Positions 4,432-13,068 of a stretch of 34,396 nucleotides of DNA are shown in pieces. The notes beneath the pieces were generated by a model. It saw nothing but the letters and a program-made list of their open reading frames with translations, made no database searches and was not told the origin of the DNA. Origin of the DNA: Silvibacterium sp. Lineage in GTDB: Bacteria; Acidobacteriota; Terriglobia; Terriglobales; Acidobacteriaceae. A program made the translations under genes and the position numbers. The DNA lies in the NCBI GenBank assembly GCA_019232935.1, contig JAFAMZ010000211.1:1-34396 (forward strand), written 5' to 3'. Numbering within the stretch: the stretch's first letter is position 1; every line of letters begins with the position of its first letter.

Positions 4432-5664
4432 ATGGGCAATCAGCTTTTGACACCTCCTGAACTGGAACCAGAATCATTACCCACGCGGCCGGCAGAAAAA
4501 GAGCCCGATTTTCTGCTCGAGACCGGCGGTTCCATGTGGTCCTCGCTCATCTCCAATTTGCGAGACGCCTTTTCGCCCTCGAAGCAGCCACCGCTTCAAT
4601 TGAGTTCTAAGCCAGTCGCAGTCGAAGACCTCGAAGTAGAAGAATCGGTTTGGAAATCCCTCGCCGCCAGCATTCATGACGTCTTCTTCCCAAAGAAACT
4701 CCCGCCCCTCGACCTCACCTCCAAACCCATTGAAGTCGAGGACCCCACCCAGACGGAGCCTGTCTGGAAGACGCTCGGCACCAGCATTCACGACCTGTTT
4801 TTTCCCAAAAAGCTTCCGCCTCTCGAGCTCACCTCGAAGCCGGTCGCGGTCGTCGACCCGATGGCGGTCAAGCGGAATCCGAAATCGACGGCACTGGCCA
4901 TCGCGGCGCACGTGTTCGTCATCGGCCTTATCGCACTGTTCCTCATAGCTGGATGGCGCACCCGCGCGATCCAGAGGAAGCAGAAGCTAGCTGACGTCGA
5001 CATCAAGCCTTTCATCCCGCTCACCATGAAGATGAACCAGTCCATGGGCGGCGGTGGTGGCGGCGGCGCACACGACCTCGTTGAGGCCTCAAAAGGCAAG
5101 CTGCCCAAGATGGCCAAGACTCAGATCACACCTCCACAGATCATCAAGAACGACAATCCCAAGCTGGCTGTCGAGCCGACCATCGTGATGCCTCAGCAGG
5201 TTAAGCTCCCCGACGCGAACATGCCCAATGTCGGCGTGCCCCAGTCGCCTCAGGTGGCCTTGGCTTCGCAGGGGCCTGGCTCGGGTTCCGGATTCGGCAC
5301 CGGACGCGGCGGCGGCATTGGCTCCGGCAACGGAAACGGTGTCGGTCCCGGCGAAGGCGGTGGATACGGCGGCGGTCTGATGCGCCCTGGCGGAGGCGTC
5401 TCGGCTCCCCAGGTTATCTACTCCGTCGACCCTGAGTTCTCTGACGAAGCCCGCCGTGCCAAGTACCAGGGCATCTGCGTCGTCTCAGTAATCGTGGACG
5501 CCCAGGGCAATCCCCGCAACGTTCGCGTGGTGCGTCCGCTCGGCATGGGTCTGGACGAAAAGGCCGTCGAAGCCGTCCGGCAGTACAAGTTCAAGCCGGC
5601 TTACTATCAGGGCCACCCTGTACCCGTGGAAGTCAATATCGAGGTCAACTTCCGCATCTACTAG
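4432..5664 (+). CDS. TonB-family energy transducer with three N-terminal 38-residue repeats
   Basis: TonB proteins couple the inner-membrane proton motive force to outer-membrane TonB-dependent transporters. The 410 residues contain a cytoplasmic region (1-150) with three tandem 38-residue repeats starting at W36, W74 and W112; one transmembrane helix (about 153-174); a Gly-rich run (GGGGGGG, 206-212); a Pro/Gly periplasmic spacer; and a C-terminal TonB domain (about 325-410) with YSVDPEFSDEARRAKYQG and VVRPLGMGLDEKAVEAVRQYKFKPA. Classical TonB has only a very short cytoplasmic tail before its helix, so the long repeated cytoplasmic part is unusual. No exbB/exbD is adjacent. A strong terminator follows at 5685. 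The family is certain; which transporter it serves is unknown. Confidence 0.93.
   Translation: MGNQLLTPPELEPESLPTRPAEKEPDFLLETGGSMWSSLISNLRDAFSPSKQPPLQLSSKPVAVEDLEVEESVWKSLAASIHDVFFPKKLPPLDLTSKPIEVEDPTQTEPVWKTLGTSIHDLFFPKKLPPLELTSKPVAVVDPMAVKRNPKSTALAIAAHVFVIGLIALFLIAGWRTRAIQRKQKLADVDIKPFIPLTMKMNQSMGGGGGGGAHDLVEASKGKLPKMAKTQITPPQIIKNDNPKLAVEPTIVMPQQVKLPDANMPNVGVPQSPQVALASQGPGSGSGFGTGRGGGIGSGNGNGVGPGEGGGYGGGLMRPGGGVSAPQVIYSVDPEFSDEARRAKYQGICVVSVIVDAQGNPRNVRVVRPLGMGLDEKAVEAVRQYKFKPAYYQGHPVPVEVNIEVNFRIY
4537..4878 (+). repeat. Three tandem 114-bp in-frame repeats inside the TonB-family gene
   Basis: The three units begin at W36, W74 and W112, an exact period of 38 codons. Each has the pattern W-x-S/T-L-x(3)-I/L-H/R-D-x-F-x-P-x-K-x-P-P-L-x-L-x-S-K-P-V/I. 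Units 2 and 3 are closest (FFPKKLPPL in both), and unit 1 has drifted (FSPSKQPPL). The units lie wholly on the cytoplasmic side of the predicted membrane helix. Confidence 0.9.
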
Positions 5665-9851: not shown

Positions 9852-11843
9852 TCACTCCGTGTCAGCCCGCTTAAAAGGCGTCTGGAGGTAATGTCTCGCC
9901 TCGTTCAGCGCTCCGCCGGTGTTGTCGTTCGTCTGCAGCGCCTGCCGATACTCCGGCACGGCACGGTCGCGCTGGCCGGTCAGGTCGAATATCTTGCCGA
10001 TCTGTACGTGGCTCCATACTTCCGTCCACTTCGGGTCGCCGTCCCCGCGCAGGCAGTCGCGATACGAATTGATTGCCGATTGATAATTGCGCTGATTGAA
10101 AAAGATCTCCGCGATGCGGTAATGCGCAAGCGAGCTCTGCGGATTAGCCTGGAGCGCCTTCTGGTACTCGGCCAACGCGCCGCTTACGTCACCCTGGGCC
10201 ACCAGCTGTTGGCCTTTGAGGATCGACACTCTCACCTGCATGTTCGGGGTGCTCTTCAGCACCCAGTTCTCCGGATCGATCTGCACGTGCCGCGGCCGGC
10301 CGAAAGTATCGACTACATATTGCGAATCCGTGCCCACCACAGTGACGCGCTTATTCTCCGTCTTGCCGTCGGTTTCGATGCGCAGGTCCACTGGCATATT
10401 AAACAGGTCGAGGTCCTGCTGAATCTCACCGATCGTTCGAAAGCCCTTGTTGTTTCCAAGCCTGTAGATCGCGTACTTGTTCGTAAACGTCGGAGCGCCT
10501 GTCCCGTCCAGCCACTGCGCAAAAAATGGAGTGAGCTGCTGCTGCGATTGCGCCTCGGCGACTTTCTCGAAATCAGTGGTCCGAATGCCCTTGTCCGTGT
10601 ACTGCGACAGCACAGCCCGAAGTATCTTTACGAAGCTGTCGTCGCCCACTTCCCACCTGAGCATGTGATAAACCACGGCGCCCTTGTCCAGTGTCATCGA
10701 CTGGAACTCCGGCGTGAATACGCCCAGCCGTCCTGCGCTCGACAACGGAATCGTGTCATACGCAAGTGCGCCCGCCGAGACATCCAGAATCGCATTATCG
10801 AGCGCCGACTTCCCCGCGGCGTCTTCCAGATACATCAGCTCGCCGTACCGCGCCATTCCGTTCGTAATCCATGTATCGTTTAGCGTCGCCGGACTCATTT
10901 CGCTGCCCCACCACTGATGCGCGATAGTGTTGGCCAGCACGCGGAAGTCCGTCTTGCCTCCCATGCGGGTCCCCGCTACTGCCGCAATCTCCGGAGCCCA
11001 GTAGGTCGGAACCGTATCCTCCGGCAGTTCCACTACATTCAAAGTGCTGGATTCCGGCAGGCCGAACGTTGACGTGAAATACGCAAAGATCCTCAGCGCG
11101 CTCTGCCCGTACTCCTGTGCGGCGGCCTTCTTGTCTTCCGTCGTATAGACGTGAATGTTTGCCGCTGCCGATGTAGGCGGTCCGAACTTGCCGGCAATAA
11201 TGGTTCCCGGAAAACCCGGCTTCTTCCAGCTGAAATCGAATTCGTTCGCGCCTCCGGCGATTGGTTTTCCGCCGCCTTGTGCGCCGCTGCCTATCGCCGT
11301 GTATCCGGCAGGCACCTTCACGTGAATCTCCGCGGTGAACCGATCGATCAGATAGCCCACTGTCGGAAACCACCGGCCGCCGTACAGCAAATACGACGTC
11401 GGATCGCCCACATACGCTAGCTTCAAACCATCGACCGGCCCCCCTGCATCGGTCTCAAGCGCGCCCGAGTAATAGAAGGTCCAGGTGTAGGTCTGCCCCT
11501 TGCTCAACGGCTGCGCTGGAGTGATCCGCAGCGTCGCCTCCGCTCCGCGCTCGCCGCTCAGCGAAACGTTCTTCGAGTCCGTCACCTTATCGACTCTTAG
11601 AGCGCCGTGCAGGTCGAACACAGCGGTCTGCACCGGATCAAGATCCGTGAAAGTCACCCGCGTTACGCACGTCAGCATATGCGTTTCGGGCTTCAGCTCG
11701 GCGTCAATGGTATAAGCCGTGATCTGGATGGGCACGCGATCCGCTGCGCCCGCTAAAGGAGCGGCCAGAATGAGCAGAACTGCCAACAAACAGCCGATGC
11801 GCGGCAAGTGGGCAAAGGTTTGAACGGAGCGAAGTGTAATCAT
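9852..11843 (-). CDS. Secreted M1-peptidase-like protein with degenerate active site and C-terminal TPRs
   Basis: The 663 residues hold a signal peptide (about 12-33), an N-terminal M1-type beta domain, an M1 gluzincin-like domain and C-terminal TPR repeats (about 545-655, with GALAEYQKALQANP and HYRIAEIFFNQRNYQSAINSY). The zinc site normally read as HEXXH-X18-E aligns at 305-328 as NTIAH-X18-N. The first His is Asn305, the catalytic Glu is Thr306, and the third ligand Glu is Asn328. Only His309 remains. The catalytic Tyr of the Y-x-K-G motif is Leu385 in LDKGAVVYHM, and no GAMEN motif is visible. The reading frame is intact, so this looks like a maintained non-enzymatic scaffold, not a pseudogene. 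It follows lpxB by 31 bases. Confidence 0.88.
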   Translation of the reverse strand: MITLRSVQTFAHLPRIGCLLAVLLILAAPLAGAADRVPIQITAYTIDAELKPETHMLTCVTRVTFTDLDPVQTAVFDLHGALRVDKVTDSKNVSLSGERGAEATLRITPAQPLSKGQTYTWTFYYSGALETDAGGPVDGLKLAYVGDPTSYLLYGGRWFPTVGYLIDRFTAEIHVKVPAGYTAIGSGAQGGGKPIAGGANEFDFSWKKPGFPGTIIAGKFGPPTSAAANIHVYTTEDKKAAAQEYGQSALRIFAYFTSTFGLPESSTLNVVELPEDTVPTYWAPEIAAVAGTRMGGKTDFRVLANTIAHQWWGSEMSPATLNDTWITNGMARYGELMYLEDAAGKSALDNAILDVSAGALAYDTIPLSSAGRLGVFTPEFQSMTLDKGAVVYHMLRWEVGDDSFVKILRAVLSQYTDKGIRTTDFEKVAEAQSQQQLTPFFAQWLDGTGAPTFTNKYAIYRLGNNKGFRTIGEIQQDLDLFNMPVDLRIETDGKTENKRVTVVGTDSQYVVDTFGRPRHVQIDPENWVLKSTPNMQVRVSILKGQQLVAQGDVSGALAEYQKALQANPQSSLAHYRIAEIFFNQRNYQSAINSYRDCLRGDGDPKWTEVWSHVQIGKIFDLTGQRDRAVPEYRQALQTNDNTGGALNEARHYLQTPFKRADTE

Positions 11844-11874: not shown

Positions 11875-13068
11875 TCAAGCCGCTTGCGGACTCCTCTTTA
11901 GTACTTCCATTGTGATGCGGGCGGTACGGTCGATCGCCGACTCGCCCCCTGCGCTGTCTCCGGCCTTGAGCATACCCGATATCCCGCGCAGGTCCGCAAT
12001 CATGCTCTCTCGCGCCTGGCCCGCCCGCAAAAGCGGTTCCAGGTGTGAGACGACATTCTCAGCCGTAAAGTCACCCTGTAACAACTCCGGGACCACCCTT
12101 CGTCCGGCAATCAGATTCACCATGGCAACATGTGGCACGTCCACCACCCGCTTCGCAACGGCATAGCTTAACGGCGAAACCCGGTAGACCACAACGAACG
12201 GATTACCGATCAGCGCTGCCTCAACCGTCGCTGTTCCGCTTGCCACCACGCTTGCCCGCGCGTGATGCAGTGTGGCGCGTGCATCGCTGGCAATGCAAAT
12301 GCGAGGCTGCCCCGGAAGCATCCCCTCCACCTCAGCCCGCTGCAAGGGAGTCAGCGTGGGCGCAAGCGGCAGCAGAAACTCGTAATCGCCTCGTTGCCCC
12401 AGCAGCGACGCCGCTCGCAGCATCTCAGGCAGGTTCAGACGCACTTCTTTTATGCGGCTGCCCGGCAGCAGCCCGATCCATTCCTTCGTATTGGCCAAAG
12501 GTTTGGACGATCCCGCCCCCCATTGGCGAGCGAAGTCTTCCCGTGAGACCTGAGGACGAGGCGTCTCCGCCAGCGGATGACCCACGAACGTCGCCTCGAC
12601 CCCGCGCTCGCGATAAAACCTTTCCTCGAAGGGGAAAATCACCAGCATCCGGTCGACGTATTTCTGGACCTCGCGGATGCGGTACTTCTTCCAGGCCCAC
12701 AACTGCGGCGAGACAAAATAGATGACAGGTACCCCGGCTCGCTTCAGATGCTTCGCCAGCGACAGGTTCACATCGGGAAAATCGATCAGGATCGCCGCAT
12801 CCGGCTTCTCCGTCCGGATCGCCGCCTTCAGCCGCCGGTATTCCCGATAGATCTGCGGCATGTGCCGGATCACCTCGGTGATCCCCATGACTGCCACATC
12901 TTCGGCCCGCACAATCCGCCGAAAGCCGAGCGCCTCCATCCGCTGCCCGCCCAGCCCGAAGAACTCCGCCTCCGGAACCAGCCGCCTGAGAGCCGGAATC
13001 AGCAGTGTCCCGTAGTGCTCGCCGCTTGCCTCGCCGGCAGAAATGAAAATCCTGGGCTCACCGCTCAT
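11875..13068 (-). CDS. lpxB: Lipid-A-disaccharide synthase
   Basis: LpxB (GT19) joins UDP-2,3-diacylglucosamine and lipid X to form the lipid A disaccharide at the inner membrane's inner face. The 397 residues show the N-terminal ISAGEASGEHYG (10-21), FGLGGQRMEALGF, the conserved DFPDVNLSLAKHLKRAGVPVIYFVSPQLWAW (about 95-126), FVGHPLAE, LLPGSRIKEVRLNLPEML and ASGTATVEAAL. These are the family's standard blocks and the length is typical. The ATG follows the zinc-ribbon gene's TAG with no gap. The rest of the lipid A pathway (lpxA, lpxD, fabZ, lpxK) is not in the window. Its presence shows a lipid A-bearing outer membrane. Confidence 0.96.
   Translation of the reverse strand: MSGEPRIFISAGEASGEHYGTLLIPALRRLVPEAEFFGLGGQRMEALGFRRIVRAEDVAVMGITEVIRHMPQIYREYRRLKAAIRTEKPDAAILIDFPDVNLSLAKHLKRAGVPVIYFVSPQLWAWKKYRIREVQKYVDRMLVIFPFEERFYRERGVEATFVGHPLAETPRPQVSREDFARQWGAGSSKPLANTKEWIGLLPGSRIKEVRLNLPEMLRAASLLGQRGDYEFLLPLAPTLTPLQRAEVEGMLPGQPRICIASDARATLHHARASVVASGTATVEAALIGNPFVVVYRVSPLSYAVAKRVVDVPHVAMVNLIAGRRVVPELLQGDFTAENVVSHLEPLLRAGQARESMIADLRGISGMLKAGDSAGGESAIDRTARITMEVLKRSPQAA

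Follow-up and report, generated by a model that had tools for sequence, protein, structure and literature searches.

The M1-like protein encoded directly downstream of lpxB in the window (the whole 34,396-nucleotide stretch of DNA analysed here) is, judged from its residues, without a catalytic site. It is under strong purifying selection and belongs to a family in which the zinc site has been converted repeatedly and replacement pockets have become fixed. In the cell envelope, it probably serves as a reused scaffold or binding protein. A sequence-only reading had described the lost site in this single protein and proposed a pseudoenzyme acting as a periplasmic scaffold or peptide sensor; that interpretation is partly supported, and the family-wide conversion with its fixed pockets is the larger finding beyond it.

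The frame begins with ATG at 11843 and runs over 663 codons with no internal stop, and a TPR tail is attached, as the sequence-only reading had stated (Table 1). Pfam places Peptidase_M1 at residues 301-444 (E 9e-13) and TPR models at about residues 543-640, the tail bearing the signature GDxxPKWTEVWSH...D..QR.RA..EY..A. At the N-terminus, an h-region IGCLLAVLLILAAPLAG and a cleavage site near AGA/AD are recognized by eye, making export of the protein probable. The lpxB gene lies upstream on the same strand, separated by 31 bases. Searches against named NCBI families return weak TPR and PepN matches far below the cut-off, and a scan for promoters and terminators around the gene gives nothing above shuffled sequences.

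Table 1 Positions of the M1-like gene, its sequence elements and lpxB in the window.
Feature	Position	Strand	Basis
M1-like pseudopeptidase with TPR tail, 663 aa	9852..11843	-	open frame, Pfam M1 and TPR
Probable Sec signal peptide, about residues 1-34	11742..11843	-	read by eye
YWAPEI, residues 281-286, at the GxMEN place of M1 enzymes	10986..11003	-	alignment, counts
NTIAH, residues 305-309, replacing HEXXH	10917..10931	-	sequence
N328, replacing the third zinc ligand Glu	10860..10862	-	sequence
L385, replacing the catalytic Tyr	10689..10691	-	sequence
TPR tail, residues 533-656	9876..10247	-	helices in model, highest conservation
lpxB	11875..13068	-	Pfam LpxB, E 2e-89

M1 enzymes possess the zinc site HEXXH-X18-E, a catalytic Tyr within Tyr-x-Lys-Gly, and the exopeptidase motif GxMEN. 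In the query, the corresponding segment reads VLA-N305-T306-I-A-H309-QWWG, followed by WIT-N328-GMARY, with 18 residues between H309 and N328; NTIAH-x18-N thus occupies the place of HExxH-x18-E at the exact spacing previously read. The catalytic Tyr is replaced by Leu385, also as read before, which precedes K387-G388 in L385-D-K387-G. At 280-285, TYWAPE stands where GxMEN would be, a loss absent from the sequence-only reading. The M1 identity of the query is nonetheless far from chance, by Pfam (PF01433, E 9e-13) as well as by fold (Foldseek E about 1e-30).

An AlphaFold (AF2) model of the query, built from an alignment of 94 orthologs, has a mean pLDDT of 96.1 and a pTM of 0.93. Among solved structures, it comes closest to M1 aminopeptidases such as IRAP and ERAP1 (probability 1.00, TM 0.65-0.69 on the query), bearing out the earlier claim that the M1 fold is kept. 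When sequence profiles are compared, the nearest entry other than TPR proteins is 6a8z/6iff (E 1e-29 to 6a8z), the M1 zinc metalloprotease of D. radiodurans. The model proceeds from a beta domain through a helical catalytic-like domain and a beta sandwich to the TPR helices. The alignment span, about 670 columns, suggests that the TPR solenoid replaces the helical domain IV of M1 enzymes.

The replacements at the former active site are conserved as a clade, as the sequence-only reading had asked. Among 58 members of the query's order, position 305 is N in 57, position 306 is T in 56, position 328 is N in 52 (D in 5, E in 1), and position 385 is L in 51 (T in 6, Y in 1). In the old GxMEN loop, W282 is present in 58/58 and E285 in 54/58. 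The statement that all catalytic residues except one histidine are lost holds for the query; as a family constant the histidine does not stand, since position 309 is H in 51/58 and Arg in 7/58 of the order, and Arg in 30/30 members of the sister order Bryobacterales. Whole-protein dN/dS is about 0.04-0.10 in pairs with usable dS, with dS saturated, and the protein is under strong purifying selection. Conserved loss of catalytic residues combined with purifying selection is expected of pseudopeptidases, catalytically dead peptidase homologues kept for binding, and the protein probably belongs among them. A decaying pseudogene or single damaged copy, to which the lost catalytic residues of the query might point, is refuted by a frame that stays open in hundreds of genomes, by the low dN/dS and by the fixed replacements, leaving it a negligible probability. 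Intact HEXXH in sister species, which would have indicated such a copy, is found neither in sister species nor in sister genera; the intact members belong to another family of the class and fall within the pattern of repeated loss described below.

Conservation of the cleft was compared with that of the surrounding domain by mean identity. At five pocket positions it reaches 0.85 in the query's order, against 0.61 for the catalytic-like domain; the corresponding values are 0.86 and 0.60 in Bryobacterales (NQxxR..N) and 0.83 and 0.55 in clade A (RExxY..Q). In the family f66, the pocket stands at 0.58 and the catalytic domain at 0.66, and clade B and f68, both small sets, show no pocket excess. 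In every set, conservation is highest in the TPR tail (0.50 versus 0.35 over 94 sequences, and 0.73 versus 0.61 within the query's order). This last result, together with the variation of the pocket between clades, would fit an unused cleft, the M1 domains forming a rigid spacer and the TPR tail doing all the work; we consider this quite unlikely, because a pocket more conserved than the rest of its domain within three clades is unexpected from drift. The fixation of several polar cleft residues in the query's order could likewise mean that the protein is still a hydrolase, using another metal site or a non-metal mechanism with residues such as H309, E285, N305 and N328. The residue set nevertheless varies by clade with no alternative ligand set shared, H309 being Arg in Bryobacterales and some Terriglobales, and retained hydrolysis seems very unlikely. 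The window's own genome (75% complete) encodes three other M1 proteins, at least two of them with a visible HExxH..E, so hydrolysis is covered elsewhere.

The gene is present in 282/298 genomes of the order and 288/299 genomes of the class, and the Silvibacterium bohemicum ortholog (L034) is 79% identical to the query, whose own genus is Silvibacterium. Spread of the gene by plasmids is rejected, a PLSDB search at E 1e-20 giving no match. Across the phylum, two sorts of proteins are recovered: full-length orthologs that carry the TPR tail (E below about 1e-80), and M1 proteins matching the peptidase part alone. Outside the class, the orthologs separate into clades A (REVAYQWWG) and B (RRxAx), both deep, and the M1-TPR family extends across the phylum with its TPR tail kept. 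Two further proteins of related architecture were observed. One (L151, 3225-5288) combines an M1-like part and TPR tail with a lost zinc site (RSIGY..Q); it lies outside the main family on a long branch, and its placement in the tree is unsure. The other (L154, 1523-3517, minus strand), from another acidobacterial family, is an M1 protein that retains HEIAH..E and the Tyr and also has a TPR tail, possibly an active relative of the same architecture.

Among 179 distinct orthologs, HExxH..E is kept in 15, a single ligand in 75, and none of the three ligands in 81; the catalytic Tyr is also kept in 2 of the 15 (L178 and L182). Most intact sites belong to a single family of the class (f66, loci L167-L196), with L201 in addition. 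Their sisters in f66 display HEIAR, LEIAR, TEISH, YAIAN, and changes of the Glu to D, N, A or Q; in this family the zinc site is still decaying. In clade A (L116-L144), Glu306 is kept in 13/13 members counted, with both His ligands and the third-ligand Glu gone.

In a tree built without the catalytic columns, the intact members are nested among lost ones. If loss is assumed to be irreversible, the resolved tree requires 12 losses, a number that falls to 10 with weak forks collapsed, and unordered parsimony gives 6 zinc-site changes. AU tests of 27 rows under a simple model, on a group picked by its zinc-site state after the tree was seen, reject a single ancestral loss that would unite all lost members in a clade (p-AU 1e-6); they also reject a single loss inside f66 (p-AU 4e-6). 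The nearest outgroup M1 proteins keep HEIAH..E and Tyr and lack GxMEN (GGHxPA in its place), so in the common ancestor a zinc site was probably present and GxMEN absent. The proposal of a pseudoenzyme is strongly supported by the conserved replacements, the purifying selection, the confident M1 fold and the recurrent loss across the phylum.

Outside clade A, lpxB lies directly upstream on the same strand in 119/120 informative loci, L143 being the exception. This set comprises L001-L146 minus the TPR-only matches L002 and L003, nine start-truncated loci and the 15 clade A loci; it takes in L142, which the automatic distance filter missed, and it counts loci rather than independent events, some being two copies of one genome. 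In clade A the linkage is 0/15: those neighbouring genes that were tested encode unrelated proteins, UbiD and a VWA protein among them, and lpxB is located elsewhere in 14/15 of the genomes. The acyltransferase-like neighbour in the window adjoins the M1-like gene in one other locus (L033); in the relatives that were searched, the best matches to it are found on a different contig or at a long distance from the M1-like gene. The envelope role suggested earlier from both neighbours therefore keeps its lpxB half, while the acyltransferase is rejected as functional context. Elsewhere in the window, 4432-5664 (+) encodes a 410-aa protein with a TonB-like C-terminus by eye and, in its N-terminal part, three repeats that are nearly identical and about 40 residues long (SL..SI.D.F.PKKLPPL.L.SKP..V.DP).

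Several genomes carry lpxB and gave no M1-like gene (G043, G128, G160, G170, G236, G048 and G240), some of their contigs ending soon after lpxB; in five further genomes without the gene, lpxB is also missing from the assembly, maybe through a gap. The M1-like gene is thus not required by LpxB itself, and an essential partnership with LpxB is weakened by these intact-lpxB genomes and by clade A. Because of the lpxB-only lineages and the unlinked clade A, the link could be mere inherited gene order. At one such locus (L235 in G048, 2.4 Mb, 99% complete, same family), lpxB and an ABC transporter are in place with the M1-like gene missing. In genus g7 (L232, L233, L234, L237 and L238), LpxB gives a two-piece Pfam match in one frame, at 1-210 and about 250-356, which suggests that it carries an insertion; no M1-like gene was found in the g7 genomes with this split match.

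The protein may serve as a scaffold or as a peptide sensor. We give about an even chance to an exported M1-fold pseudopeptidase that has a BepA-like layout and acts in envelope biogenesis as a periplasmic non-cutting scaffold or as a chaperone that binds peptides. Its ancestor was probably a zinc peptidase whose cutting was dispensable and was lost repeatedly; the binding function would have been kept and the cleft re-fixed in a clade-specific form. In the periplasm, the protein would bind without cutting: its TPR tail would dock on a constant partner within the envelope machinery, and the cleft of the former active site would hold a client, ligand peptide or other ligand without hydrolysis. 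Pocket residues fixed per clade, and the nearly invariant W282 and E285 in the order, would also suit a sensor whose altered cleft recognises a free peptide or a fragment of the cell wall and whose TPR tail signals to a membrane partner. Such a sensor is unlikely in our view, given that lpxB is the sole consistently adjacent gene among the window's neighbours and that no transmembrane segment is evident in the sequence beyond the signal peptide.

Extended to the family, the scaffold or chaperone reading becomes more tentative: a phylum-wide, mostly lpxB-linked M1-TPR family might have turned into a non-cutting envelope-assembly factor at least 10 separate times, several lineages fixing a cleft of their own. 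If so, it would offer a natural series for the passage from enzyme to binding protein, and outer-membrane biogenesis in Acidobacteriota would include this family as an unrecognised component. The family combines, on one conserved chassis, zinc sites that are intact, half lost or fully replaced, so that how the losses were ordered and what became of the cleft are directly testable. Terriglobia are a class common in soil, and if the lpxB link reflects function, nearly all of them would possess an unstudied envelope factor. A small literature search found no account of the M1-TPR family.

Among known systems, the M1 aminopeptidases ERAP1, IRAP and LTA4H share with the query the M1 fold followed by a C-terminal helical solenoid. 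The query differs from them in lacking HExxH, the third-ligand Glu, the catalytic Tyr and GxMEN, in the apparent substitution of TPR for helical domain IV, in its predicted secretion and in its linkage to lpxB. The yeast protein Tma108 is not known to have a TPR tail. Tma108 is an M1-family pseudopeptidase that binds nascent chains (PMC11266112). It resembles the query as an M1-family pseudopeptidase, but is eukaryotic and ribosome-associated, with no lipid A context. BepA of E. coli is a periplasmic zinc-metallopeptidase with TPR that degrades or chaperones LptD and contacts BAM, acting as both protease and chaperone in the quality control of LptD and BAM (PMC7950410). The query is alike in layout, with a domain of zinc-peptidase type, a C-terminal TPR and predicted export. 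Membership in the BepA (M48-TPR) family is excluded, however, Pfam giving M1 and TPR only and no M48 domain: BepA has the M48 fold with HExxH kept, whereas the query has the M1 fold with HExxH lost. BepA acts in outer-membrane assembly, a role that for the query is proposed here, and it is the best functional analogue of the query in the literature covered.
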